A program made the translations under genes and the position numbers. Below are positions 16,005 through 44,179 of a DNA stretch of 64,000 bases, one piece after another. Each line of letters begins with the position of its first letter. Position 1 is the first letter of the stretch. Source of the DNA: Acidobacteriota bacterium (GTDB lineage: Bacteria > Acidobacteriota > Terriglobia > Terriglobales > Acidobacteriaceae); the NCBI GenBank assembly GCA_021846985.1, contig JAJZVX010000006.1:62001-126000 (forward strand). The letters run 5' to 3'. The notes under the pieces are model-generated. The model ran no database searches. It was not told the origin of the DNA and saw only the letters and a program-made list of their open reading frames with translations.

Positions 16005-17356
<1,352 letters not shown>

Positions 17357-28245: not shown

Positions 28246-29643
28246 TTACTCCGTTACCATTCCCTGGCTGTCAGCCTCAAATCCGCCGGCTTCGGCCACC
28301 CGCACCAGCCGGTGCAGGTAGGCTCGCGAAATATGCAGGCTGCGCGCCGCCAGCGTCTTGTTGCCGCGCATTTCGCGAATGGCTTCGGTGGCCAGCCGGA
28401 TTTTGAAGTCGTGAATCTGCTGCTCGAAGCTGCCCGCAGGCATCCCCGCGTTGAGCGCCATGGCCTCTTCCTTGCGCAGGTTTTGCGGCAGGTCCGCCAC
28501 GCGGATCGTATTTCCTTCCGCCAGCACCAGCGCGCGCTGCACCAGGTTCTCCAGTTCGCGCACGTTGCCCGGCCAGCTATGCTCTTGCAGAACGGCCATG
28601 GCCTCCGGCTCAAACCGCTCCACATTCTTCCGGTACATCTGCGCGTAGGTGCGCAGAAAATGACTGGCGATCTGCGGTATGTCCTCGGGATGATCCTGTA
28701 GCGAAGGCGTTTCGATTTTGACTACATTGATCCGGTAGTAGAGATCCTCGCGGAACTTGCTCTTGGCCACCATCTCCGCCAGATTCCGGTTGGTGGCAAA
28801 CACCAGCCTAGCCTTGAGCGGGATCAGCTTGTTGCCGCCCAGGCGGCTGAACTCGCGCTCCTGCAGCACGCGCAGCAACTTAACCTGCGTCATCAGGCTC
28901 AGTTCGCCGATCTCGTCGAGGAAGACAGTGCCATCCCCAGCCTGCTCAAAGAAGCCCGCCCGCGACCCCACCGTGCCCGTGTAAGCGCCTTTCTCGTGCC
29001 CGAAGAGCTCGGCTTCGATGAGCGTCTCGGGAATCGCCCCGCAGGGAACCGCCACAAACGGCCGGCTGGCGCGGCTACCCAGATTATGGATGGCCCGCGC
29101 CACCAGTTCCTTGCCCGTGCCGCTCTGTCCGGTTACCAGCACCGACACATTCAGATCTGCCACGCAGCGCACCAGCCGGTAGACCTGCTGCATCTGCTGG
29201 CTCGATCCGATGATGCGGTCGCAGCTGACAGGCAGCGCCATCCGTTCCTGCACGGTCTCCAGTTGCTGTTTCAGCGCCGCGCTTTCGTGCGCCCTCCGCA
29301 GCATGGTCCTCAGATCGCGGATCGACGGCGGCCGGCGACAGTAGCCGTATGCCCCCAGGCTCACCAGTTCCTCGGCCCGGCGCCGCAATCCGTCATCGGC
29401 TAGAATCACCCACGGCACCGCAGTCCCAAGGTGATCCTGCGCGAAGCCGATACGTTCCCGCACCAGAAGGTGATGGGAGTTCAGGTCCAGAAGAACCACG
29501 TCGCACTCTTGCGCAGAAAGCGCGGGCTCAATCTGGTCAACGTTCGATACCAGGAAGACTTCAAATTCTTTCCCCAAGGCAGAACTCAGAAGAGACTGAA
29601 GCGCACGGTCCTCTGAAAACAAGCAAACACGAGTCATAAACAA
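28246..29643 (-). CDS. Sigma-54-dependent Fis-family response regulator, candidate Tad regulator
   Basis: 465 aa; receiver ([10 protein letters not shown]), AAA+ ([23 protein letters not shown]), C-terminal HTH; divergent from the Tad operon. Confidence 0.93.
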
Positions 29644-29986
29644 GGAAACCCCTGCTCTCGCCGTATGGTGTGCGGCTGGAATTGTAGAGCCATCGTAGCG
29701 GAAGGCATCTTGTCAATCAACTATTCGTACTCTTTTAATAACACTTTAGTAACCATTCCCAGGAGATTACCTGCACTCGCCGTTGTTTTCAGGCTGTTGA
29801 TTCTTGCCATATCTCACTGATTGATCGTTTGTTGTCCATTGATTTCCCTATCCAACCGGTGCTTTCCCAACGGGCGCCCGGACTCTGCTGACCGCAGAGG
29901 CAACCACTCCGAGCAGGATGGGCGCGACGGAGACACCCGCTGTCGCCTCGCGTTGTATATGGACTGCTTCACCCTCCGCTGCAACT

Positions 29987-30010
29987 GTATACATCCGTCT
30001 ACATCCGTTC
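29987..30010 (+). promoter_or_regulatory. Putative enhancer (EBP-binding) site A: GTATACATCCGTCTACATCCGTTC
   Basis: Direct repeat ACATCCGT-CT-ACATCCGT; same motif upstream of two other sigma-54 promoters; ends 57 bp before the -24 GG. Confidence 0.7.
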
Positions 30011-30064
30011 TGGTTTCTTCAACCTAAGTGATTCATAGTAATCGCGTTAAAGGGCCAATGGGTT

Positions 30065-30081
30065 TTGGACAGACGATTGCT
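30065..30081 (+). promoter_or_regulatory. Putative sigma-54 promoter: TTGGACAGACGATTGCT
   Basis: -24 GG and -12 GC with exact 10-nt spacing and full TTGCT -12 element; 45 nt upstream of the first Tad-operon ORF. Confidence 0.72.
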
Positions 30082-30125: not shown

Positions 30126-30290
30126 ATGAACTGGATTGCCGGATGGTCCGCTCTTGCTGTGATTGCGCTCTCGGCAGCCGTGGGAGCCTGCCTCTCCGAG
30201 TCGCGTATCCGCTTTATTGTCAATTGGCTGCTGCTCCCGGTGCTGTGCGAGGGAGTGCTGCTGCAGCTGTTTTACTTCAACACGCACTGA
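30126..30290 (+). CDS. Small membrane protein, first ORF of the Tad operon
   Basis: 54 aa MNWIAGWSALAVIALSAAVGACLSESRIRFIVNWLLLPVLCEGVLLQLFYFNTH; strong RBS AGAGGAGG; below the ORF-track cutoff. Confidence 0.7.
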   Translation: MNWIAGWSALAVIALSAAVGACLSESRIRFIVNWLLLPVLCEGVLLQLFYFNTH

Positions 30291-30305: not shown

Positions 30306-30815
30306 ATGCATTCGATTGCATGGTGGCCGACCGTACTGGTTCTGGCTGTTGCCATCTTCACCGATCTGCGCAACCGCCGCATCCCCAACTGGCTGGTGGT
30401 GCCTTTCCTGGTAACGGGAATCGTGCTTTCCGCCTGGCTCCACGGCTGGCACGGCGTGGCATGGAGCCTTGCGGGGCTTGGTCTTGCCGCGCTGCTCTTC
30501 GGCGCGCTGGCCTGGATGGGCGGCATGGGCATGGGCGACGTAAAGCTTTGCGCCGCCATCGGCGCCTGGATTGGGCCTGTGCAGTTGTTCACCGCGCTGG
30601 TACTCACCGGCCTCGCTGGAGGCATGATGGCGCTGGGCTGGGCCGCATGGGGCGGCTTTCTTGGCGACCTCTTCCAAAGCACCGGCGACCTGCTGCTGGG
30701 CGGAAAGAAGCGCAGCCTGCAGCGCGTGCATGTGCTCTCCAACCCGCTGGCGCGCAAGATGCCTTACGCTCCGGCCATCGCCATCGGCACACTTTTGTCC
30801 TTTTTATCCCGCTAA
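30306..30815 (+). CDS. tadV: Type IV/Flp prepilin peptidase (A24 family, CpaA/TadV)
   Basis: FTDLRNRRIPNWLVVPFL and GMGMGDVKL (GxGD) catalytic motifs. Confidence 0.93.
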   Translation: MHSIAWWPTVLVLAVAIFTDLRNRRIPNWLVVPFLVTGIVLSAWLHGWHGVAWSLAGLGLAALLFGALAWMGGMGMGDVKLCAAIGAWIGPVQLFTALVLTGLAGGMMALGWAAWGGFLGDLFQSTGDLLLGGKKRSLQRVHVLSNPLARKMPYAPAIAIGTLLSFLSR

Positions 30816-30830
30816 GGAGAAAACGCGGCT

Positions 30831-32135
30831 TTGCAAGGCAGTTGGACCATCTTCGATTTTGAGGCGGCGCAACCCGCTGCGCCGATTGATTCCGGCGCTG
30901 CGGCCACCCGCACAGGAAGGATTGGCGGCATCGTGAGACCTGCTTCCCACCGCGACCTCGACGACCTCGGCTCCAGCCTGCTGTCTGTCGCGCTCATCAG
31001 TCCCGATACGCAGCGCCGCATGGCGGCGGCCTCAGCGCTGGCCGGCTCTCACGCCTGCGACACACGGGAGTACTCCGGCTACCCAGAGCTCGACGAGGTT
31101 CCCCGCCTTATGCAACAGAATCACGATGTCGTTATCGTCGATCTCGACAGCAATCCGGAGTATGCTCTCGATCTGGTGGAAAGCATTTGCGCGCATGGTT
31201 CGGCCACCGTGATGGTTTGCTCCGCGCAGACCGACCCCGAGCTGATGTTGCGCTGCATGCGCGCCGGCGCTCGCGAGTATCTCACTCTTCCCTTTGCTTC
31301 CGGCGCGCTGGCCGAAGCCCTTGTGCGCGCGTCGGTGCGCCGCCCCTCCGCACATCCGCAAAAGAAGGCCGGTGGACGGCTGCTGGTTTTCTTCGGCGCC
31401 AAAGGCGGCTCCGGCGTCACGATGCTGGCTTCGAACTATGCCGTTATGCTGGCGCGCGAGTCCAGCCAGAGCACCCTGCTCATTGATCTCGATCTGCCCC
31501 TCGGCGACGCCGCCCTCGCCCTCGGCGTCGACGGCCCCTACTCCACCGTCGATGCCCTGCAGAACGCCAACCGCCTGGACGCCAATTTTCTCTCCAAGCT
31601 TCTGCGCAAATACAGCCCCGACCTCTCCGTCCTTGCCGCTCCCGGCAAATTCACGAAATTCGAATCCTCCGCCGAAGCCATCGACCGGCTGATTGCCGTG
31701 GCCCGCAGCTCGTTCGACAACGTGGTCATCGACACCGGATCGCGCCTTGACTTGTTCGGCACCTCGGTCTACGAGGAAGCCAGCACCGTCTATCTCGTTC
31801 TTCAGATTGGCATCCCCGAACTACGCAATTCCAATCGCCTTGTCACGGAGTTCTTCCCGGGACAGCAATCCCGGCTGGAGATCGTGCTCAACCGCTTTGA
31901 ACCCTCCTTGCTCGGTGTCGACGAGGAACACATCGCCAAGGCCCTCACCCGCCCCGCTCAGTGGAAGATTCCCAACGACCGGGGCGTCGCGTATACGTCG
32001 CAAACCACGGCCTCGCCCCTCGCCCTCACTGACCAGCCCATCTCCCGTGCCATCTGCCAGATGGCACGGGCGGCCTGCGGCGCGGTCGAAACTGCGGAAA
32101 AAAAGAAGAAGACCTTCTTGAGCATCTTTGGCTAG
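30831..32135 (+). CDS. tadZ: Tad pilus assembly ATPase/localisation protein (CpaE/TadZ)
   Basis: Receiver-like N-terminal domain followed by MinD/ParA-like domain ([34 protein letters not shown]); TTG start. Confidence 0.92.
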
Positions 32136-32164
32136 CTCCAATCTCACTCCTGGACGGTGTTCCT

Positions 32165-33445
32165 GTGCAGGTACTGGATCTCGAAAAATACAAATCGGAT
32201 ATTCATCGGACGCTGATTGCCAAGCTCGATCTCGAGAAGCTTTCGCGTGTCAACTCCAGCCAGGCTCGCAAAGCGACTGCCGACCTCATCAACGAAATCA
32301 TTCTTGATCAGCGCGTGCCCCTCAGCTTCGAGGAACAGGAGAAAATTCAGTCCAACTTGCTTGACGAGGTCTTCGGCCTCGGCCCGCTCGAGGCGCTGCT
32401 CTCTGATCCCAAGATCTCCGATATTCTCATTAACGGCAGAGACAAGGTCTTCGTAGAGCGCGGCGGCCGCCTGCAGCGCGTGGATACGGTCTTCCGCGAC
32501 GACCGCCATCTGCTGCAGATCATCGACCGCATCGTCTCCCGCGTGGGCCGCCGCGTGGACGAATCCTCGCCCATGGTGGATGCGCGCCTGCCCGACGGCT
32601 CGCGCGTGAACGCCATCATTCCACCGCTTGCTCTCGACGGGCCTTCGATGTCGATCCGCCGCTTCGGCAACGGGCCCGTCGCCGCCAACCAGCTCGTTCA
32701 GCTCAAGAGCATCTCGCCATCCATGATGGAAGTGCTTTCGGCAGCGGTCCGCGCGCGGCTGAGTATTCTCATCTCCGGCGGCACGGGCGCGGGCAAGACC
32801 ACCTTCCTGAACATCCTTTCGCGCAATATTCCGCAGAGCGAACGCATTATCACCATCGAAGACGCCGCCGAACTGCAGCTTGCCCAGGAAAATCTCGTCC
32901 GCCTGGAGACCCGCCCGCCCAATATCGAAGGCCAGGGCGCCATTCGCCAGCGTCAGTTGCTCATCAACTGCCTGCGCATGCGCCCCGACCGCATCATCCT
33001 CGGCGAAGTCCGCGGCGAGGAAGCTTTCGACATGCTGCAGGCCATGAACACCGGACACGAGGGATCAATGGCCACCATCCATGCCAACACCACGCGCGAC
33101 GCGCTTTCCCGGCTGGAATCGATGGTCGCCATGAGCAACCTCAACCTGCCCGAGAAGACCGTCCGCCATCAGATAGCTTCGGCCGTCAACATCGTGGTGC
33201 AGGTGAGCCGCCTCAGCGACGGCAGCCGCAAAGTGATCAGCGTCTCCGAAATCACAGGCATGGAAGAAAACGTCATCACCATGCAGGAAATCTTCACCTT
33301 CGTCAAGAAAGGAATCGGGCCCGACGGCCGCGTAATCGGCGCCTTCGAGCCCACCCACATCCGTCCCCGCTTCCTCGACCGTTTCCGCACGGCGGGCATC
33401 ACTCTTTCACCCGGCGTCTTCGAACAGGCGCTGGAAGTCAACTAA
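32165..33445 (+). CDS. tadA: Secretion ATPase CpaF/TadA
   Basis: [14 protein letters not shown] Walker A, type II/IV secretion ATPase motifs; GTG start. Confidence 0.97.
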
Positions 33446-33461
33446 ACCCTGGGGAGTCTTC

Positions 33462-34433
33462 ATGGCCGTGATCCTCATGCTCGTCTTTCTCGGTGTCTTT
33501 GCCATCACGGCAGGGCTCGCCTATGCCTTCAGCCACGGCTCGGCGCGCCGGTCCAAGAGAGTCGCGGCGGTTCTGGAGTCGGCTTTGGCCAACGGCAACG
33601 AGAAAGCCGCCGAAATCAACCTCGATTTCCGCAAGAACGATTTGCTCAGCGCCGTTCCCTGGCTCAACCGCAGGCTCATCAAGCTCGACCTCGCCGAACG
33701 TCTGCAGGCCTTCCTGGCGCAGGCCGGCCTCAAGTGGACCACCGGCAAGCTCATCCTGCTTTCGCTCGCCGCTCTCGCCGGCGCCTTCTACCTTGTCCAT
33801 CTGCGCACCGGCTCCGTGATCTTTTCACTGCTGTGTGGACTGGCAGCGGGCGCTGCACCCTTCGGTTACGTCGCGTTCAAACGGCAACAGCGCTTCGCCA
33901 AATTCGAGAAGGGTCTGCCCGACGCGCTCGACCTTATCGTCAGTGCACTGCGCGTGGGCCACAGCTTCTCGGCCGCGCTCAGCCTGGTCACACGCGAGTG
34001 TCCAGACCCTGTCGCCAGCGAGTTCCGCACATGTTTCGAAGAACAGAACTTCGGCCTCGAACTCCGCGGCGCCTTCGAAAACCTCGTCTCGCGCGTCCCC
34101 ATCCAGGATCTGCGCATCGCCGTCACCGCCATCCTCATTCAGAAGGAGAGCGGCGGCAACCTCTCCGAGGTCCTCGAAAAAACCGCCTACGTCACTCGTC
34201 AGCGCTTCCGCCTCAAGCGCCAGATCCAGGTGCACACCGCGCAGGGCCGCCTCACCGGGCTCATTCTCACGCTTCTGCCGGTTGTGCTCGGCATCGGCCT
34301 TTATCTCGTCAACCCTTCGGCCATGAGCTTGTTGTGGACGCGCCCCATCGGCATCAAGCTCCTGTACACCGCCGGCGCCATGCTGACCGCCGGCACTCTC
34401 ATCATTCAAAAAATCGTGCGCATGGACGTTTGA
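33462..34433 (+). CDS. tadB: Tad inner-membrane protein TadB (GspF-like)
   Basis: T2SSF domain, gene order A-B-C. Confidence 0.95.
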   Translation: MAVILMLVFLGVFAITAGLAYAFSHGSARRSKRVAAVLESALANGNEKAAEINLDFRKNDLLSAVPWLNRRLIKLDLAERLQAFLAQAGLKWTTGKLILLSLAALAGAFYLVHLRTGSVIFSLLCGLAAGAAPFGYVAFKRQQRFAKFEKGLPDALDLIVSALRVGHSFSAALSLVTRECPDPVASEFRTCFEEQNFGLELRGAFENLVSRVPIQDLRIAVTAILIQKESGGNLSEVLEKTAYVTRQRFRLKRQIQVHTAQGRLTGLILTLLPVVLGIGLYLVNPSAMSLLWTRPIGIKLLYTAGAMLTAGTLIIQKIVRMDV

Positions 34434-34434
34434 T

Positions 34435-35349
34435 ATGGAACTTGCGATCCTCGTCTTCGGTGTCATCTTCCTGCTCATCGCCAGCGGCGGGCTGATGCTC
34501 TTCTATCGCCAAGCCATGATCCAGCGCATCTCCCGCGTGATCATGAAGCGGGAGGAAAAGCAGAAGGGACTGCGCAGCGCCATTCAGCAGACCAGCTCCT
34601 CACTGACCACGGTCCTCGAACAATTCGAGCGCGTGCTTCCCAAGACTCAGGCCGAGGTCTCGATCGTCCAGCAGCGGCTCATTCGCGCCGGATATCGCGG
34701 CGACTCCGCCGTGAAAGTCTTCTATGGCATCAAGGTCATCACCCCGCTGGCTCTCTGCGCCCTTGTGCTCGTCAGCGGCATCGGCCACGGCAACGCCCTG
34801 TTTCTCTTCATCGCCTCCCTGGGTCTTGGCTTTCTCGTGCCCGACTTTGTTCTCGGCAAGATGATCGCGTCCCGTCAGACCAAGGTGCGCCTGGGGCTGC
34901 CCGACGTGCTCGATCTGCTGGTCATTTGCATCGAAGCCGGCCTCGGACTCGACCAGGCCACCGCCCGCACCGCCAAAGAACTGTCCCGCTCCCAGCCGGC
35001 CATCGCCGACGAGCTCAGCGTGGTTGCCCTCGAGCAGCGCGCGGGCCGTCCGCGCTCCGAGTCCTGGCGCCACATGGCCGAACGCACCGACGTCGATGTC
35101 GTACGTAATTTTGTATCCATGCTGGTTCAGGCCGAGCAGTTCGGCACCAGCGTCGCCAAAACTCTGCGCACTCACTCCGACACCCTCCGCACGCAGCGCG
35201 TGCAGTCAGTGGAAGAAAGAGCCGCCAAGACGACCGTCAAGCTGATCTTTCCGCTCGTGATCTTCATTTTTCCCTGCCTGTTCCTGGTCACGCTTGGACC
35301 GGCGGCGATCCTCATGGCAGATTCGTTCAGCAAATACCTCAGCAAGTGA
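34435..35349 (+). CDS. tadC: Tad inner-membrane protein TadC (GspF-like)
   Basis: T2SSF domain, immediately follows tadB. Confidence 0.95.
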   Translation: MELAILVFGVIFLLIASGGLMLFYRQAMIQRISRVIMKREEKQKGLRSAIQQTSSSLTTVLEQFERVLPKTQAEVSIVQQRLIRAGYRGDSAVKVFYGIKVITPLALCALVLVSGIGHGNALFLFIASLGLGFLVPDFVLGKMIASRQTKVRLGLPDVLDLLVICIEAGLGLDQATARTAKELSRSQPAIADELSVVALEQRAGRPRSESWRHMAERTDVDVVRNFVSMLVQAEQFGTSVAKTLRTHSDTLRTQRVQSVEERAAKTTVKLIFPLVIFIFPCLFLVTLGPAAILMADSFSKYLSK

Positions 35350-35367: not shown

Positions 35368-35463
35368 ATGGACAACGTTACAATCATTCGCATCGTCTCC
35401 GCTGTGTTGTTCTTCGTTGTGCTGGGATTCGTGATCCAGCGCCGGCGTACCCGCGTCCGCTAG
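35368..35463 (+). CDS. 31-aa single-TM micropeptide after tadC
   Basis: MDNVTIIRIVSAVLFFVVLGFVIQRRRTRVR with RBS AGAAAGGAGA upstream; below the ORF-track cutoff. Confidence 0.6.
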   Translation: MDNVTIIRIVSAVLFFVVLGFVIQRRRTRVR

Positions 35464-36603: not shown

Positions 36604-37863
36604 GTGAAACAGATCGGCAGCGAAAACGGACAAATGCTTATCATGGTGGCACTCTGCCTGCCCGTGCTGATGGGCTTTGTGGCGCTGGCCGTGGATGTGG
36701 GCGTGATGTTCCACACCAAGCGCCAATTGCAGATTGCCGCCGATGCCGCCGCCATCGGCGCGGCCCTCGATTACAAGTTTAACGGCTCGCTCTCGTCAGC
36801 CCAGCAGGCCGGGCTCAACGCCGCATCCACGAACGGCGTCACCAATGGGGTCAACGGCGCCACTGTCGCCATTAACATGCCTCCGGTCGACGGCCCCAAC
36901 GCCGGCGTCGCCGGCCTCATTGAAGCTGTCGTCACCCAGCCCAATCCGACCTTCTTCCTCAGCGTTCTCAACACCAACTCCGTCACCATCGGCGCCCGGG
37001 CCATCTCCGGCTCCGGACCCGGCGACGGATGTGTCTGGGCTCTGGCCAAGTCCGGCAGCGATATCTCCATTACCGGCTCCGGCACCATCTCCATCCCCGG
37101 CTGCGAGGTCTTCGACAACTCTGACAGCACCAACGCCCTCACCCTTACCGGCAGCGGCTCTCTCACCGCCAAGGCCATCGGCATCGTTGGCAACTACAGC
37201 AAAACCGGCTCTGGCAGCATCTATCCCACTCCCGTCACCGGCACCGCGCCCGTTGCCGATCCACTTTCCTCGCTCCAGTTTCCCGCGGTCAACACCGGCG
37301 GCTGCTCTTCCGCAGTCAGCTACAGCGACAGCAGCGCCCACACCATCGGACCGGGCTGCTACAACGGCATCTCCAACACCGGTAGCGGCTCCCTCACGCT
37401 CACACCCGGCAACTACACCATCAACGGTAACTTTAGCTCCACCGGTAGCGGCGGCATCAACTTCGGCGCCGGCACCTACATCATCACTGGCTCGCTCAGC
37501 ATCAGCGGTTCCGGCCCCCTGAACGGAACCGGCGTGACCTTCTTTACCCAGGGCACAACCAGCGTCTCAGGAAGCAGCGGCCTCAACCTCTCCGCGCCTA
37601 CCTCCGGCCCCGACGACGGTCTTCTCTTCTTCCAGTCCAGGAACGACACCAGCTCAATCACGATCAGCGGCTCCAGTAACATGAGCCTCCAAGGCATTAT
37701 TTATGCTCCTTCCTCTGCCCTCAGCTTCAGCGGCTCCGGCTCCGCCAACATCTACACCGATCTCATCGTCGATTCCGTCTCGTTTACCGGAAGCACCCCC
37801 TTCACGAACTACTCCACCATCAACAGCTCTTCCGTGCTGGGAAAAATCGGATTGGAGGAGTAA
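36604..37863 (+). CDS. tadG: TadG-like pilus assembly protein with Gly/Ser-rich beta-helix-like C-terminus
   Basis: N-terminus SENGQMLIMVALCLPVLMGFVALAVDVGVMFHTKRQLQIAADAAAIGAA; remainder composed of ITGSGS-type repeats. Confidence 0.85.
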   Translation: MKQIGSENGQMLIMVALCLPVLMGFVALAVDVGVMFHTKRQLQIAADAAAIGAALDYKFNGSLSSAQQAGLNAASTNGVTNGVNGATVAINMPPVDGPNAGVAGLIEAVVTQPNPTFFLSVLNTNSVTIGARAISGSGPGDGCVWALAKSGSDISITGSGTISIPGCEVFDNSDSTNALTLTGSGSLTAKAIGIVGNYSKTGSGSIYPTPVTGTAPVADPLSSLQFPAVNTGGCSSAVSYSDSSAHTIGPGCYNGISNTGSGSLTLTPGNYTINGNFSSTGSGGINFGAGTYIITGSLSISGSGPLNGTGVTFFTQGTTSVSGSSGLNLSAPTSGPDDGLLFFQSRNDTSSITISGSSNMSLQGIIYAPSSALSFSGSGSANIYTDLIVDSVSFTGSTPFTNYSTINSSSVLGKIGLEE

Positions 37864-37867
37864 TCCC

Positions 37868-38350
37868 ATGCGCAAAACAGGAGTACGCCATCGCAAGGAG
37901 CGCCGTTCTTCTTTCCGCCAGCCGGCGATGGAGAATGGCCAGGCTCTCGTCGAGCTCGCTCTCTCCCTGCCTCTGCTCATGCTGCTTCTACTCGGCGCCG
38001 CCGAGTTCGCCCGGGGGGCTTATGCGGCCATCGAAGTCTCTGACGCGGCCAAGGCCGGCGTCCAGTACGGCGCCCAGAACGCCACCGCCGCCTCCGACAC
38101 CACCGGCGTTCAAGATGCCGCTACCGCCGGCGCGCCCGACATCACCCTTGGCTCCACAACTGTCTCCATCTCCTGCATCTGCTCCGACGGCTCCGCCTCC
38201 ACCTGCCTGCGCACCGACTGCCCCACTTCGCACATTGAAGAAACTCTTTCGGTGCAGACGCAAACCACCTTCGATCCCCTCATCTATGCGCCCGGCTTGC
38301 CCAATTCCTTCACGCTCTATGGACAGGCCACGCAGAAGGTGCTGCAATGA
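37868..38350 (+). CDS. tadE: TadE-family minor pseudopilin
   Basis: ENGQALVELALSLPLLMLLLLGAAEFARGAYAAIEVSDAAKAGVQYGA. Confidence 0.88.
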   Translation: MRKTGVRHRKERRSSFRQPAMENGQALVELALSLPLLMLLLLGAAEFARGAYAAIEVSDAAKAGVQYGAQNATAASDTTGVQDAATAGAPDITLGSTTVSISCICSDGSASTCLRTDCPTSHIEETLSVQTQTTFDPLIYAPGLPNSFTLYGQATQKVLQ

Positions 38351-38874
38351 CCTCCCCGGCGCTCGCCAGACAAACAAAATGCCGTTCCCGGCGCCTCCGC
38401 GGGCTTCTTCACGCCAACCGCGGATCCGCGCTTGTTGAAACGGCTTTTTCTGCCAGCCTCCTGATCGTCATGCTCATTGGCATGATGGAGATGACTCTCG
38501 CTCTTTACGCCTACCTTTTCGTTTCCGACGCGGCGCGCGAGGCCACGCGTTACGCCATCGTCCGTGGCTCCACTTCCTGCGTCAACACTCCCAATCTTCC
38601 CGGTTGCGATGCCAGCGCCGCCGACATTCAGAACTACCTCCAGACCCTCGGCTATCCGGCCCTGATGGCCGGCAACCTCACCTCGACCACCACCTGGCTC
38701 ACCGTCAGCTCCGGTCCGCCTGCCACATGGTCTTCCTGCACCAGCGGCACCTGCAATGCTCCCGGCAACCTCGTCGAAGTCACGGTGCAATATGCGTTCC
38801 CTCTCAGCATCCCCTTCGTACCCGCCTCTACGCTCACTTTGTCGAGCACCTCAGAGATGGTCATTGCGCAATAG
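38347..38874 (+). CDS. TadE-family minor pseudopilin (second copy)
   Basis: NRGSALVETAFSASLLIVMLIGMMEMTLALYAYLFVSDAAREATRYAIVRG; overlaps the upstream gene (ATGA). Confidence 0.87.
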   Translation: MTSPALARQTKCRSRRLRGLLHANRGSALVETAFSASLLIVMLIGMMEMTLALYAYLFVSDAAREATRYAIVRGSTSCVNTPNLPGCDASAADIQNYLQTLGYPALMAGNLTSTTTWLTVSSGPPATWSSCTSGTCNAPGNLVEVTVQYAFPLSIPFVPASTLTLSSTSEMVIAQ

Positions 38875-38994: not shown

Positions 38995-40329
38995 CTATTC
39001 CGTCTCGTTCGGGATCACCAGCACCACTTCCACCGCAGCCAGCGCCCCGTTCTGCATTGCCGGCCGGAACCTCCATTGCGCCAACGACTGCAACACCAGC
39101 GTCGCCTGCGGCGTCTGCGGCGGATACACCAGGCTCAGCCGCTCGAACCGCCCCTGGCGATTCACGATGCCGTGCAACACCATCGCATCCGCGTCCAGCA
39201 GCGCAGGAATCAGGTGCGGCCGCACCACATCGTAGGGCCACGGCGCATCGAGAGCCGCCGCGCCGCCTGTCGCACGGGCGTCCGCTTCCGGCAGAGAGTA
39301 CTGAAGAATCCAGTTCCGCGTCTGCCCCACCCGCAAATACACCGTATAGGCCATGCGCCCGCCCCATATCCGCAGCAGTTCTGGATACTCATCCTCCAGC
39401 GACGAGCCCACCACCACCACGCCAAACCGCCCGTCCTTGGGAAACGTCAGGTGATCCGTCTCGGCCGCGCCCAGCGCGCCGCTTTGCCGCGCAGCGCCCG
39501 CGGCGCCTGAGCCCTTCGACTTGGCCGCCGTGGCCGCTTTACCGCTCGATCCATCCTGCTCCGGTCCTCCATCGATTCCAGAATTGCTCTCCACCAGCCC
39601 CTGAGCTCTGGTTTTCTCGATCAGGTCCGGCCGCGTCTGGTTGGCCGGCGGCAGCGTTGCCGTGCCTTTCTTCATGCGCACGTCCGAAAGCGAAAGCGCG
39701 GCGGCCGGCGTCGGCTCTTTCGTCGACTCCGACGGCATGGACGGCGCCATTTGCAACAGTTCCTGCCCTTCCACCTTCACCGGCGTGGTGGTTCCCGGCA
39801 ACAGCGCATGGAACGGCACTTGCGCATCTGTCGCCGTCAAGCCCACATCACTCAACGTCAGCTCTTCGTTGGGTTCCACCAGGCTCGGCCGCGCCTTAGC
39901 GGCTGATGGCGGCTGCGGCCGCGGCAGCACAATCTCTTTCACCAGCTTCTTTTTCGGCGTCCAGACGGCCACCGCCGGAACCGGGATCTTCTCCTTGAGC
40001 TTCAGATTCGGCGGCAGATCCGGTTGCACCAGCGTTTGAAGAGCCGCTTCAAATTGCGGCAACTCCCAAGGCTCCGTCCCTCCCGCTGGCTGGCTCTTCA
40101 CATCCGCACCGTCACCCGCCTGCGCTTTGCCGATTTTGGGCGTGCGCGCCGCCACTGGCTCCCGCAGACGCAACTCCACCTGCCGGACGGCATAGCGATC
40201 ATTCAACCATGGATCGCGAACCAGCGGCGCATGCGTCAGCGTATACACCGCCACAACCGCCACCAGGCCGTGCACCACCATCGACAGCGCATAGGGCGCC
40301 GCGCCCGCGCCTTCTTCCGGCCGGTCCAC
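38995..40329 (-). CDS. TonB-like (energy transducer C-terminal domain) protein, antisense within the Tad locus
   Basis: 444 aa; N-terminal TM, Pro/charged linker, C-terminus MVLHGIVNRQGRFERLSLVYPPQTPQATLVLQSLAQWRFRPAMQNGALAAVEVVLVIP; GTG start. Confidence 0.75.
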   Translation of the reverse strand: MDRPEEGAGAAPYALSMVVHGLVAVVAVYTLTHAPLVRDPWLNDRYAVRQVELRLREPVAARTPKIGKAQAGDGADVKSQPAGGTEPWELPQFEAALQTLVQPDLPPNLKLKEKIPVPAVAVWTPKKKLVKEIVLPRPQPPSAAKARPSLVEPNEELTLSDVGLTATDAQVPFHALLPGTTTPVKVEGQELLQMAPSMPSESTKEPTPAAALSLSDVRMKKGTATLPPANQTRPDLIEKTRAQGLVESNSGIDGGPEQDGSSGKAATAAKSKGSGAAGAARQSGALGAAETDHLTFPKDGRFGVVVVGSSLEDEYPELLRIWGGRMAYTVYLRVGQTRNWILQYSLPEADARATGGAAALDAPWPYDVVRPHLIPALLDADAMVLHGIVNRQGRFERLSLVYPPQTPQATLVLQSLAQWRFRPAMQNGALAAVEVVLVIPNETE

Positions 40330-40600
40330 GAACAGCGATTGCAGGGAGGAAGTTTTCGTACGTCCAAACCTCGTCCATCAGATGCGCATCCGCGAGAATG
40401 CCTTGCTCCCGGTCCCTTGCCTCAGGAGACACTCCTCTCTTCGTTGCACTGCGATTGCCACTTCCACGCGCGGCGGCCATCAGCCCGCCCAGTCCGCGCC
40501 ATTTTTCTGCAAACTCCCGGGAAGCGCGGTAAAACGGCCTCTGCTGCCGCTGGCCGCATGCCGCCGTCGCGTCTGGTTGGCGACACAGGAGCCGCCCATG

Positions 40601-40624
40601 GTAAACATCCGTTCACACTCGTTC
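40601..40624 (+). promoter_or_regulatory. Putative enhancer site B: GTAAACATCCGTTCACACTCGTTC
   Basis: 19/24 identical to site A; ends 57 bp before the -24 GG of the cpaB promoter. Confidence 0.72.
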
Positions 40625-40678
40625 CGGCTTCTGCCTGCCTAATCTCCTTATTCCGCGCATGATTACCGCCTTTTGCCT

Positions 40679-40695
40679 GTGGCACGGCAATTGCA
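40679..40695 (+). promoter_or_regulatory. Putative sigma-54 promoter: GTGGCACGGCAATTGCA (exact TGGCACG-N4-TTGCA)
   Basis: Perfect consensus -24/-12 element 54 nt upstream of cpaB. Confidence 0.85.
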
Positions 40696-40748
40696 ATCAC
40701 CACTCCGGCATCTCCGGGCCAGGGCCGCATCGCCCACAAGGAAACCGC

Positions 40749-41600
40749 ATGAATCGACGACTGTTTACCATTCTCGCCATCTCGTTCCTCGTGGCCTGCG
40801 TCAGCTCACTTCTGGTCTACCGCATGGTCGGCAATCGCGTGAGTTCCGTCCGCAAACAGGCCACCACGCGTGTGGTAGCGGCCGCCACTGACATCAAGAT
40901 CGGCACGGTGCTCAGTGCTGCTAATCTCACCACCGTAGACATCGCCAGTACGCTGCCTGAAGGAGCCATCCTGAAGCCCGCCGACGCTATCGGCCGCGGT
41001 GTCGTAACCGACCTCTACCGCGGCGAGCCGATTCTCAACAATCGCCTTGCTCCGCTCGGTTCCGGCGGAGGCTTGGCCGCCACCATCCGCAAGGGTATGC
41101 GCGCACTTGCCGTCAAGGTCGATGAGGTCGTGGGCGTCGCCGGCTTTGTCACACCCGGCATGCGCGTCGATGTTCTTGTCTCCGGCGATCCCCCGGGCGC
41201 CTTTAACCCCACTTCCGGCGCCGAGGTCCGCACCCTCCTCCAAAACATCGAGGTGCTCTCCGCCGGAACCGACATCCAAAAGGACACCGACGGCAAGCCT
41301 CAGCAGGTGCACGTAGTCAACCTTCTGGTGACGCCGGAGCAGGCCGAGGTTCTTTCTCTCGCCAGCAATCACACCCACTATCAGATCCAGCTTGTCCTCA
41401 GAAACCCTCTCGACACGCAGGTCGCCAAGGTGCAGGGTCTTTCGATGTCCACTCTCTTCGGCGGCGCGCCGACCGCGCCTGCCCACAAAACCGGACTCGC
41501 CCATCCGCGCCGCCAGTCCACACCGGTCTACTCCGTCGTTGTCTTCAACGGAGCGCAGCGCAGTGTGCAGAACTTTGAATTGCACGAGGAAAAGCAGTGA
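40749..41600 (+). CDS. cpaB: Flp pilus assembly protein CpaB/RcpC
   Basis: N-terminal TM, SAF domain (TRVVAAATDIKIGTVLSAANLTTVDIA), RcpC domain. Confidence 0.94.
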   Translation: MNRRLFTILAISFLVACVSSLLVYRMVGNRVSSVRKQATTRVVAAATDIKIGTVLSAANLTTVDIASTLPEGAILKPADAIGRGVVTDLYRGEPILNNRLAPLGSGGGLAATIRKGMRALAVKVDEVVGVAGFVTPGMRVDVLVSGDPPGAFNPTSGAEVRTLLQNIEVLSAGTDIQKDTDGKPQQVHVVNLLVTPEQAEVLSLASNHTHYQIQLVLRNPLDTQVAKVQGLSMSTLFGGAPTAPAHKTGLAHPRRQSTPVYSVVVFNGAQRSVQNFELHEEKQ

Positions 41601-43156
41601 GAGCCCGCTTCCATCTTCGATTGCCCATTCTCGGCGCCTCCTTCTGCTGCATGGGCATGTGCCCGGCGCTTCAGGCGCAGGCTCTGACCATGCCGCTGCA
41701 TTCCTATGCGGCTCCCGTCGCCGACCGCGCCGACGACCTTGTTGTCGCTGCCGGCAAATCCGTGATTATTGATTGCGCACACCCCATCGAGCGCGTCGCG
41801 GTTGGTCTGGGCGATTACGCCGAGGCGATTGCCGTTACCCGCAATGAGATCCTGGTGAACGGCAAGACTCCCGGCGTGACCAGCCTCATCGTATGGGAGC
41901 AGGGAGGTCTCCGCCAGTTCTTCAATGTCAAGATCCTGGTGGGCGCGGATCAGACAGAAGACCATCTCGCGGGCATCCGCCGCGAGCTTGCCAGACAGCT
42001 TCCCGGACAACCCATCCGCGTCAGTTTTGAAAACAACACTCTCTTTCTCTCCGGCACGGCTGACGATCTCAACAGCTCTGACCGCGCCCTCCAGATTGCC
42101 TCCACCTCCGGCAAGGTCGTCAACCTGCTCAATGTAAAGGTACCGCCCGCCGAGCCGCAGATTCTTCTCAAGGTGATTTTCGCCAGCGTTGACCGCATCC
42201 GCAGCAACCAACTCGGCATGAACCTGTTCTCTACCGGGCTGGGCAACACCATAGGCGGCACTACGACCGGCCAGTTCTCTCCGCCCACGGTTGCGCTGCC
42301 CAGCGCCACCAGCGGCGCCACCGCCACGCTTTCCAACGAGCTCAACCTCTTCGCTTTCTTCCCCGGCCTTAATCTGGGAGCCACCATTCAAGCCCTTGAA
42401 ACCGAGGGCCTGGTCCAGGTGCTGGCCGAGCCCAACGTCCTGGCGCAAAACGGCAAACAAGCCAGCTTCCTGGCCGGGGGCGAGTATCCCTATCCCGTCG
42501 TGCAGGGCAACACAGGCGTTGTGAGCGGCTCCTCCGTGACCATTGAATTCAAGGAGTACGGCGTGCGCCTCAACTTCATCCCCACCATCACGCCGCGCGG
42601 CACCATCCGTCTGCAAGTTGCTCCCGAGGTCAGCTCGCTTGACTTCACCAACGCCATCACCATCTCCGGTTTCCAGGTTCCCGCCATCGACGTGCGCAAC
42701 GTCAACACGGAAGTGGAACTGGCGCAGGGGCAGAGCTTCGCCATTGGCGGTCTGCTCGACAACCGCGAAACCGAAACCTTTGAGAAGATTCCTTTCCTCG
42801 GCGACATCCCCATCCTCGGCAAGTTCTTCCAGTCCATCAACAAGACCAAGTCCAACACCGAACTTATCGTCATCGTTACCCCAGAGATCGTCGAACCGAT
42901 CAAACGGGGCGGGCCTTTGCCGCAGTTGAAATTCCCCGCCACCTTTTTACCGCCGAACTCCGGCATTCCCATGCACACTCCTGATGCCCTGCCAGCCGGC
43001 GTGCCGCCGCCACCGCCCAGCACCATGCCAGTGGAAAAGCTCATTGAAAGCATGAAACCGGAGAAACCGCTCAGCATCGACAACACTTCAAACGGCCCTG
43101 CCGGCTCAATGGGATCCGGATCGTCCATCGGTTCCTCTCCGGGCTCTTCGCAATGA
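41597..43156 (+). CDS. cpaC: Tad secretin CpaC/RcpA
   Basis: Pilus-formation N-terminal domain and secretin core (VPAIDVRNVNTEVELAQGQSFAIGGLLDNR...ELIVIVTPEIVEP). Confidence 0.95.
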   Translation: MRARFHLRLPILGASFCCMGMCPALQAQALTMPLHSYAAPVADRADDLVVAAGKSVIIDCAHPIERVAVGLGDYAEAIAVTRNEILVNGKTPGVTSLIVWEQGGLRQFFNVKILVGADQTEDHLAGIRRELARQLPGQPIRVSFENNTLFLSGTADDLNSSDRALQIASTSGKVVNLLNVKVPPAEPQILLKVIFASVDRIRSNQLGMNLFSTGLGNTIGGTTTGQFSPPTVALPSATSGATATLSNELNLFAFFPGLNLGATIQALETEGLVQVLAEPNVLAQNGKQASFLAGGEYPYPVVQGNTGVVSGSSVTIEFKEYGVRLNFIPTITPRGTIRLQVAPEVSSLDFTNAITISGFQVPAIDVRNVNTEVELAQGQSFAIGGLLDNRETETFEKIPFLGDIPILGKFFQSINKTKSNTELIVIVTPEIVEPIKRGGPLPQLKFPATFLPPNSGIPMHTPDALPAGVPPPPPSTMPVEKLIESMKPEKPLSIDNTSNGPAGSMGSGSSIGSSPGSSQ

Positions 43157-43278
43157 GTCCGCGCACGGAGCGAGCGGGCTCACGACGTCCGCCGTACCGT
43201 ACCACCGCGCCCCGCGATCGTTGCCCAACTGCCCCTGACAAGGCAAACTTCCCCGCAACCATAATGGAGGACAACCCA

Positions 43279-43755
43279 ATGAAACGCTCCAGATCGATGC
43301 TGTCACACATCATCACCTGGCTGATTCACCAGAAACAAAGACCCGACATCCGCCTGCGCATCTCCAACCTTACTCGCCGGACCATCCTCGCCAGTTCCGC
43401 CGAGCTGGCCGACAGCGGCCAAAAACGCAGAAAAGGCCTCCTGGGCCGCAACACGCTCGCACCCGGCGAAGGTCTCTGGATCCTTCCCTGCGAGGCCGTT
43501 CACACCTTCGGCATGCGCTTTCCCATCGACCTCATCTACCTGGACCGCAATCACCACATCAAGAAGGTCCGCAGCAACGTTCGCCCGTGGCGCCTGTCGG
43601 CCTGCTTCACGGCCCACTCCGTGATCGAGCTCGCCAGCGGCACCATTCGCCAAACGCAAACGCAGCCCGGCGACAGGATCGAGTTTGCCTCCACGCCTTT
43701 TGCCGAGGAAGCTTCCTCCGCTTTTTCCGCCCATGCCCTGGGCGTCGCAGATTAA
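43279..43755 (+). CDS. DUF192 family protein
   Basis: RKGLLGRNTLAPGEGLWILPCEAVHTFGMRFPIDLIYLDRNHHIKKVRSNVRPWRLS; alternative start at 43264. Confidence 0.87.
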   Translation: MKRSRSMLSHIITWLIHQKQRPDIRLRISNLTRRTILASSAELADSGQKRRKGLLGRNTLAPGEGLWILPCEAVHTFGMRFPIDLIYLDRNHHIKKVRSNVRPWRLSACFTAHSVIELASGTIRQTQTQPGDRIEFASTPFAEEASSAFSAHALGVAD

Positions 43756-43817
43756 CCCGGCTGCCGCTCAAACACGCGCCGCCACCTGTAAACCCGGCGA
43801 ACCTGCCCGAACGCTTT

Positions 43818-43841
43818 GTATACGGCCGTTCACACACCGCA
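43818..43841 (+). promoter_or_regulatory. Putative enhancer site C: GTATACGGCCGTTCACACACCGCA
   Basis: 16/24 identical to site B, 14/24 to site A; ends 58 bp before the -24 GG of the flp promoter. Confidence 0.65.
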
Positions 43842-43896
43842 TCCCGCGTACCGCCTCTAAGTTGTTGATTTAGCGCAGAACCCGGCAGCACGCAGA

Positions 43897-43913
43897 ATGG
43901 TCATCCACTTGCT
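43897..43913 (+). promoter_or_regulatory. Putative sigma-54 promoter: ATGGTCATCCACTTGCT
   Basis: -24 TGG and -12 TTGCT with exact GG-N10-GC spacing, 63 nt upstream of flp. Confidence 0.72.
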
Positions 43914-43975: not shown

Positions 43976-44179
43976 ATGCAGGATATGCTGTTGAAGTTCT
44001 ACATCAAGGCGCAGAACCTGATGACGGACGAAGACGGTCAGGATCTGGTCGAGTATGCCCTGGTCGTCTCGCTGCTCTCTCTGGCCGCCACTACCGCCAT
44101 GGGCTCGCTGGCCACTGCCATTAACAGCGCCTTCACCGCCATCGGCGACAAGCTGACCGCAGCTCTGCCCTCCAGCTAA
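43976..44179 (+). CDS. flp: Flp/Fap-type major pilin
   Basis: 67 aa; EDGQDLVEYALVVSLLSLAATTAMGSLATAINSAFTAIGDKLTAAL with G|QDLVEY processing motif. Confidence 0.94.
   Translation: MQDMLLKFYIKAQNLMTDEDGQDLVEYALVVSLLSLAATTAMGSLATAINSAFTAIGDKLTAALPSS

Follow-up and report, generated by a model that had tools for sequence, protein, structure and literature searches.

Sigma-54-dependent control of Tad-type pilin genes has a precedent in Desulfovibrio vulgaris, where the sigma-54-dependent response regulator DVU2114 binds upstream of Flp/Tad-type pilin genes, its targets in that paper being a pilin target and DVU3342-3345 (PMC3333781). The DVU numbering puts DVU2114 beside the cluster DVU2116-2126. 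Elsewhere, different regulators control the Tad loci: PprB in Pseudomonas aeruginosa and FliA in Bdellovibrio (PMC5430801) and CtrA in Caulobacter (PMC11264516). The classical sigma-54 layout consists of a -24/-12 box, an upstream enhancer at 100-150 bp and DNA looping assisted by IHF (PMC7057263). For the Acidobacteriota, a dominant soil phylum, the open-access papers searched (subscription journals were mostly outside this coverage) gave no description of Tad pilus control, sigma-54 control included. The main texts of two genome-wide sigma-54 regulon papers (PMC3162934 and PMC12316311) mention neither Tad nor Flp nor Acidobacteriota.

The locus reported here lies within a 64,000-nucleotide stretch of Acidobacteriota DNA, which was analyzed as a whole and is called the window. 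Its genes are in the order tadV, cpaE, cpaF, tadB, tadC, a 31-aa ORF, a 285-aa gene, tadG, tadE, a divergent TonB-like gene, cpaB, cpaC, a DUF192 gene and flp. Comparison of this DNA with that of relatives makes it highly likely, in our judgment, that the Tad pili are served by a regulon of three sigma-54 promoters, called P1, P2 and P3, which would be driven by an activator encoded next to the locus. The first ORF after P1 encodes 54 aa and has no family match (30126-30290, plus strand). It is followed by the tadV, cpaE, cpaF, tadB and tadC genes of the P1 unit (30306-35349, plus strand), of which tadV was assigned by position and sequence rather than by a family match. The 31-aa ORF after tadC (MDNVTIIRIVSAVLFFVVLGFVIQRRRTRVR, 35368-35463, plus strand) is conserved in many relatives with 48-97% identity. 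The tadG-like and tadE-like genes (36604-38874, plus strand) are separated from cpaB by the divergent gene that splits the locus (38995-40329, minus strand), which has no Pfam match and a C terminus that appears TonB-like by eye. The first gene of the P2 unit is cpaB (RcpC/CpaB; 40749-41600, plus strand), the ATG of which is preceded by AAGGAAA. The cpaC secretin gene (41597-43156, plus strand) and the DUF192 gene that overlaps its end (43153-43755, plus strand) are followed by the flp pilin gene (43976-44179, plus strand), which matches Flp_Fap below the curated cut-off.

The P2 box, TGGCACGGCAATTGCA (TGGCACG-GCAA-TTGCA), is the -24/-12 sigma-54 promoter assigned to cpaB-cpaC and occupies positions 40680-40695 of the plus strand. 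A sequence-only reading had placed it at 40679-40695 and 54 nt before cpaB. The site and its intergenic upstream location are real, but that reading began the box one base early and the distance from the end of the box to the cpaB ATG is 53 nt. The claim of a perfect consensus was borne out: the sequence fits at every informative base, with -24 GG and -12 GC elements at the fixed spacing (TGGCACG-N4-TTGCW). The transcript start that we predict from the -12 position, about 40706, agrees with the one proposed earlier. With the in-frame ATG at 40659 as the cpaB start, the box would fall within the gene; this start was rejected, as the relatives align from 40749 and AAGGAAA lies before 40749.

No other exact match to TGGCACGN4TTGCW was found in the window, and a sigma-54 weight matrix hand-set from general knowledge ranked P2 first of about 128,000 window positions (19.5 bits, the runner-up having 14.3). 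Pattern searches of the genome (3.79 Mb in 48 contigs), however, gave four matches to TGGCACGN4TTGC versus five for the reversed control. The bare motif is at chance level genome-wide and alone proves little. Thus, the sequence-only view of P2 as an ideal promoter is upheld as to the site, but consensus alone is weak evidence for it, and other evidence from position and conservation was needed.

Such evidence came from CpaB relatives gathered from 61 genomes plus GTDB contigs; among named loci, those with the closest CpaB proteins belong to Acidobacteriaceae. The best sigma-54 match fell at -67 to -73 in 21 of 50 non-redundant cpaB upstream regions of related Acidobacteriota, about 2.6 being expected under uniform placement (binomial p = 1.6e-14, a value that is indicative only as the regions are homologous and not independent). 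In 13 aligned loci having the full layout the box columns were 84% pairwise identical, versus 28% for the downstream sequence and 27% for the spacer. About half of the cpaB relatives have a decayed or absent P2 box, and therefore P2 is not obligatory across relatives; many of the genomes that lack it have the activator gene described below. Directly before the cpaB start there is also a hairpin (AGAAAGGCGGAGCTGGC-loop-GCCAGTTCAAACAGG) conserved in about 27 relatives (e.g., L024, L067, L041 and L034; alignment A1). Paired cells make up 85.6%, and covariation is modest, 4 of 500 shuffles reaching the score. Ten loci searched against Rfam up to E = 1 had no match to a known riboswitch or leader RNA.

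The earlier reading also assigned promoters of one class to both halves of the Tad locus. This agrees with the P1 box, TGGACAGACGATTGCT (30066-30081, plus strand), upstream of the tadV-cpaE-cpaF-tadB-tadC unit. A further box, P3 (TGGTCATCCACTTGCT, 43898-43913, plus strand), precedes the flp pilin gene. Both have the correct spacing and are weak when taken alone, ranking 42nd (P1) and 77th (P3) in the window by the weight matrix. P1 is credible mainly because of the enhancer that it has in common with the other promoters and because of the relatives, many of which have a TGG-N8-TTGC box upstream of tadV. In nearly every locus examined, the first copy of flp is preceded at -69 to -80 by a box comparable to P3, often with the full consensus. 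The third promoter, the enhancers and the adjacent activator gene go beyond what had been noted earlier.

The putative enhancer common to P1, P2 and P3 is a palindrome, TGTAWACRNNCGTKYACA. Its dyads, all read on the plus strand, are TGTATACATCCGTCTACA at 29986-30003 for P1 and GGTAAACATCCGTTCACA at 40600-40617 for P2, each centered 71.5 bp before the TGG of the box, and TGTATACGGCCGTTCACA at 43817-43834 for P3, centered 72.5 bp before it. An exact pattern derived from these three sites themselves, GTAWACNNNCGTNYACA, has three matches in the 3.79 Mb genome, all of them at these Tad sites. A non-circular test used a matrix made solely from relatives (35 sites). This matrix ranked the three window dyads first to third with 23.7-26.7 bits, whereas the best unrelated site scored 10.0. 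Relatives show a cluster of dyad-to-box distances at 68-73 bp; the outliers, 58/61 and 80-84 bp, are off by roughly one helical turn in either direction. Between dyad and box, an IHF-like site begins 40-41 bp before each of the three window boxes (plus strand): TAAGTGATTCATA at 30025-30037 for P1 (8/9 consensus bases), TAATCTCCTTATT at 40640-40652 for P2 (7/9, starting 40 bp before TGG) and TAAGTTGTTGATT at 43858-43870 for P3 (9/9, a perfect YAANNNNTTGATW). In most promoters, those of relatives included, the start of the IHF-like YAANNNNTTGATW lies 39-41 bp before TGG. The genome encodes three HU/IHF-family proteins, each at most a candidate IHF subunit.

The candidate activator of P1-P3 is a sigma-54 enhancer-binding protein encoded at 28246-29637 on the minus strand, directly upstream of the tadV unit and in the opposite orientation. 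Its Sigma54_activat AAA+ domain has Walker A and B motifs and a GAYTGT loop in place of GAFTGA (the orthologues have mostly GAFTGT). A putative C-terminal HTH was recognized by eye as a conserved stretch, there being no separate HTH family match. The receiver is degenerate rather than a complete NtrC-type domain: a family search gave no Response_reg match and, judged by eye, the Asp is kept in most orthologues with Arg replacing Lys and Ala replacing Thr/Ser. Since the receiver is degenerate, phosphorylation may not be the input of this activator. The score of the protein falls far short of all NCBIfam equivalog cut-offs shown. Orthologues lie next to the tadV end of the Tad locus in several relatives. 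The genome has a single copy of rpoN and 13 full-strength sigma-54 activator matches; a second activator AAA+ domain is present in the window at 16424-16918 (plus strand), about 12 kb before the Tad-linked gene. With position and sequence conserved, the enhancer and IHF-like site at standard distances, rpoN and the activator matches, the site flagged by the sequence-only reading is with high probability a genuine sigma-54 promoter for cpaB-cpaC.

The distribution of activator and dyads was compared in the genomes that gave a result for both. At least one exact dyad was present in 25 of the 30 genomes with the activator versus one of the seven without it (Fisher p = 0.001, phylogeny not being corrected for). 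Five activator-bearing genomes had no dyad of the exact pattern, and the only activator-less genome with an exact dyad, G023, is 73% complete. Three activator-less genomes (G001, G002 and G009) retain the Tad genes and rpoN and lack good dyads. The -24 GG at flp has been lost in all three, with the -12 TTGCT kept (loci L169, L167 and L168, respectively). These genomes probably form one group, and so the loss of activator and dyads may have been a single event. Relatives in which activator and sites were apparently lost together provide a natural comparison. About 200 nt before flp the same three loci have dyads resembling ATAACACTTT(T/G)GTG(C/T)TAT, and flp in these activator-less genomes is possibly under a replacement control system.

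These data bear on three other explanations. The P2 consensus could be a chance match in G+C-rich DNA, with cpaB expressed from an unrecognized housekeeping promoter, and the genome-wide motif count and the many relatives having no box at cpaB would fit such a view. However, chance does not account well for a box conserved in position and sequence with a common dyad at matched spacing, and a search of 40330-40800 gave no sigma-70-like promoter, so this explanation seems very improbable to us. It is also improbable, though less so, that the dyad is bound by a repressor or some other regulator and that the sigma-54 boxes use a different, distant enhancer. Dyads are common operator shapes, and some relatives have exact dyads outside their Tad contig as well. 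In contrast, the spacing from dyad to -24 element is preserved, with shifts close to a helical turn, and an IHF-like site lies between the two, as is usual where an enhancer drives a sigma-54 promoter.

The last explanation accepts the sigma-54 promoters and the common enhancer but assigns activation to an enhancer-binding protein other than the neighbor. This we consider unlikely, although it is the most plausible of the three, as the genome has many other strong activator matches (one of them that near 16424 of the window) and binding specificity cannot be read from the sequence here. The argument for the neighbor is that in several relatives its orthologues lie beside the Tad locus and that the dyads are mostly absent from genomes lacking these orthologues.

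In the preferred reading, a three-promoter regulon driven by the adjacent activator, sigma-54 RNA polymerase would wait in the closed form at each box and the dyads would be bound by one activator as a dimer or hexamer, its most likely source being the gene at 28246-29637. An IHF/HU-type protein would help the DNA to loop between dyad and box, the AAA+ ring would open the promoters at the expense of ATP, and motor, secretin and pilin would be made together. Note that sigma-54 binding at the boxes, binding of this activator to these dyads, the involvement of IHF and an activating signal are all inferred. As a candidate activator, its predicted binding site and three target promoters are named to the base, the proposed pilus switch is directly testable.

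A broader proposal is more tentative, and we judge it slightly more apt to fail than to hold. A Tad-dedicated activator having a degenerate and possibly phosphorylation-independent receiver would run the whole pilus by one enhancer code at three promoters and, in relatives, would also act at the promoter of the divergent TonB-like gene. This regulon would have been rewired by activator loss in one group and by P2 decay in another. If this is true, the TonB-like gene that seemingly interrupts the Tad locus would belong to the pilus system as a regulated gene. In eight relatives (L052, L058, L060, L064, L065 and L072, and also L022 and L023) a minus-strand sigma-54-like box faces the TonB-like gene, the distance from dyad center to this box being 89 bp in six loci and 77-80 bp in two. 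Of these loci, L064 belongs to Acidicapsa dinghuensis and L065 to Edaphobacter aggregans DSM 19364, both cultured relatives in which the layout is conserved. Between the TonB-like gene and cpaB, the eight relatives have a second dyad (TGTCT...CTACACA) at a distance of about 30 bp from the first. This arrangement suggests a bidirectional enhancer between the two genes in these relatives. For the window itself, a divergent sigma-54 promoter of the TonB-like gene was considered and rejected: the candidate box on the minus strand (40445-40460) has a score of 9.8, and 148 bp separate it from the dyad, versus 201 bp in L051 and 77-89 bp in most others.

Compared with the classical sigma-54 layout, P1-P3 likewise have a box and an upstream enhancer dyad, with an IHF-like site between them as the candidate bend site, but the enhancers are nearer, with about 97 bp from their centers to the predicted start rather than 100-150 bp (PMC7057263). 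The PilR/PilS-pilA system of type IVa pili (cited in PMC3333781; PMC6058289) also pairs a sigma-54 promoter with an NtrC-type activator for a pilin gene. It serves another pilus class, whereas in the present system the activator receiver has Arg for Lys and the enhancer is common to three units. The Tad loci controlled by PprB, FliA and CtrA resemble the present locus in having dedicated control of Tad/Flp pilus genes, but those sources do not describe them as having the enhancer-plus-sigma-54 layout present here. The likeness to DVU2114, a sigma-54-dependent regulator of Flp/Tad-type pilin genes in a phylum other than the Acidobacteriota, is one of description; by this analogy, the present regulon would be of a type already known from that regulator.
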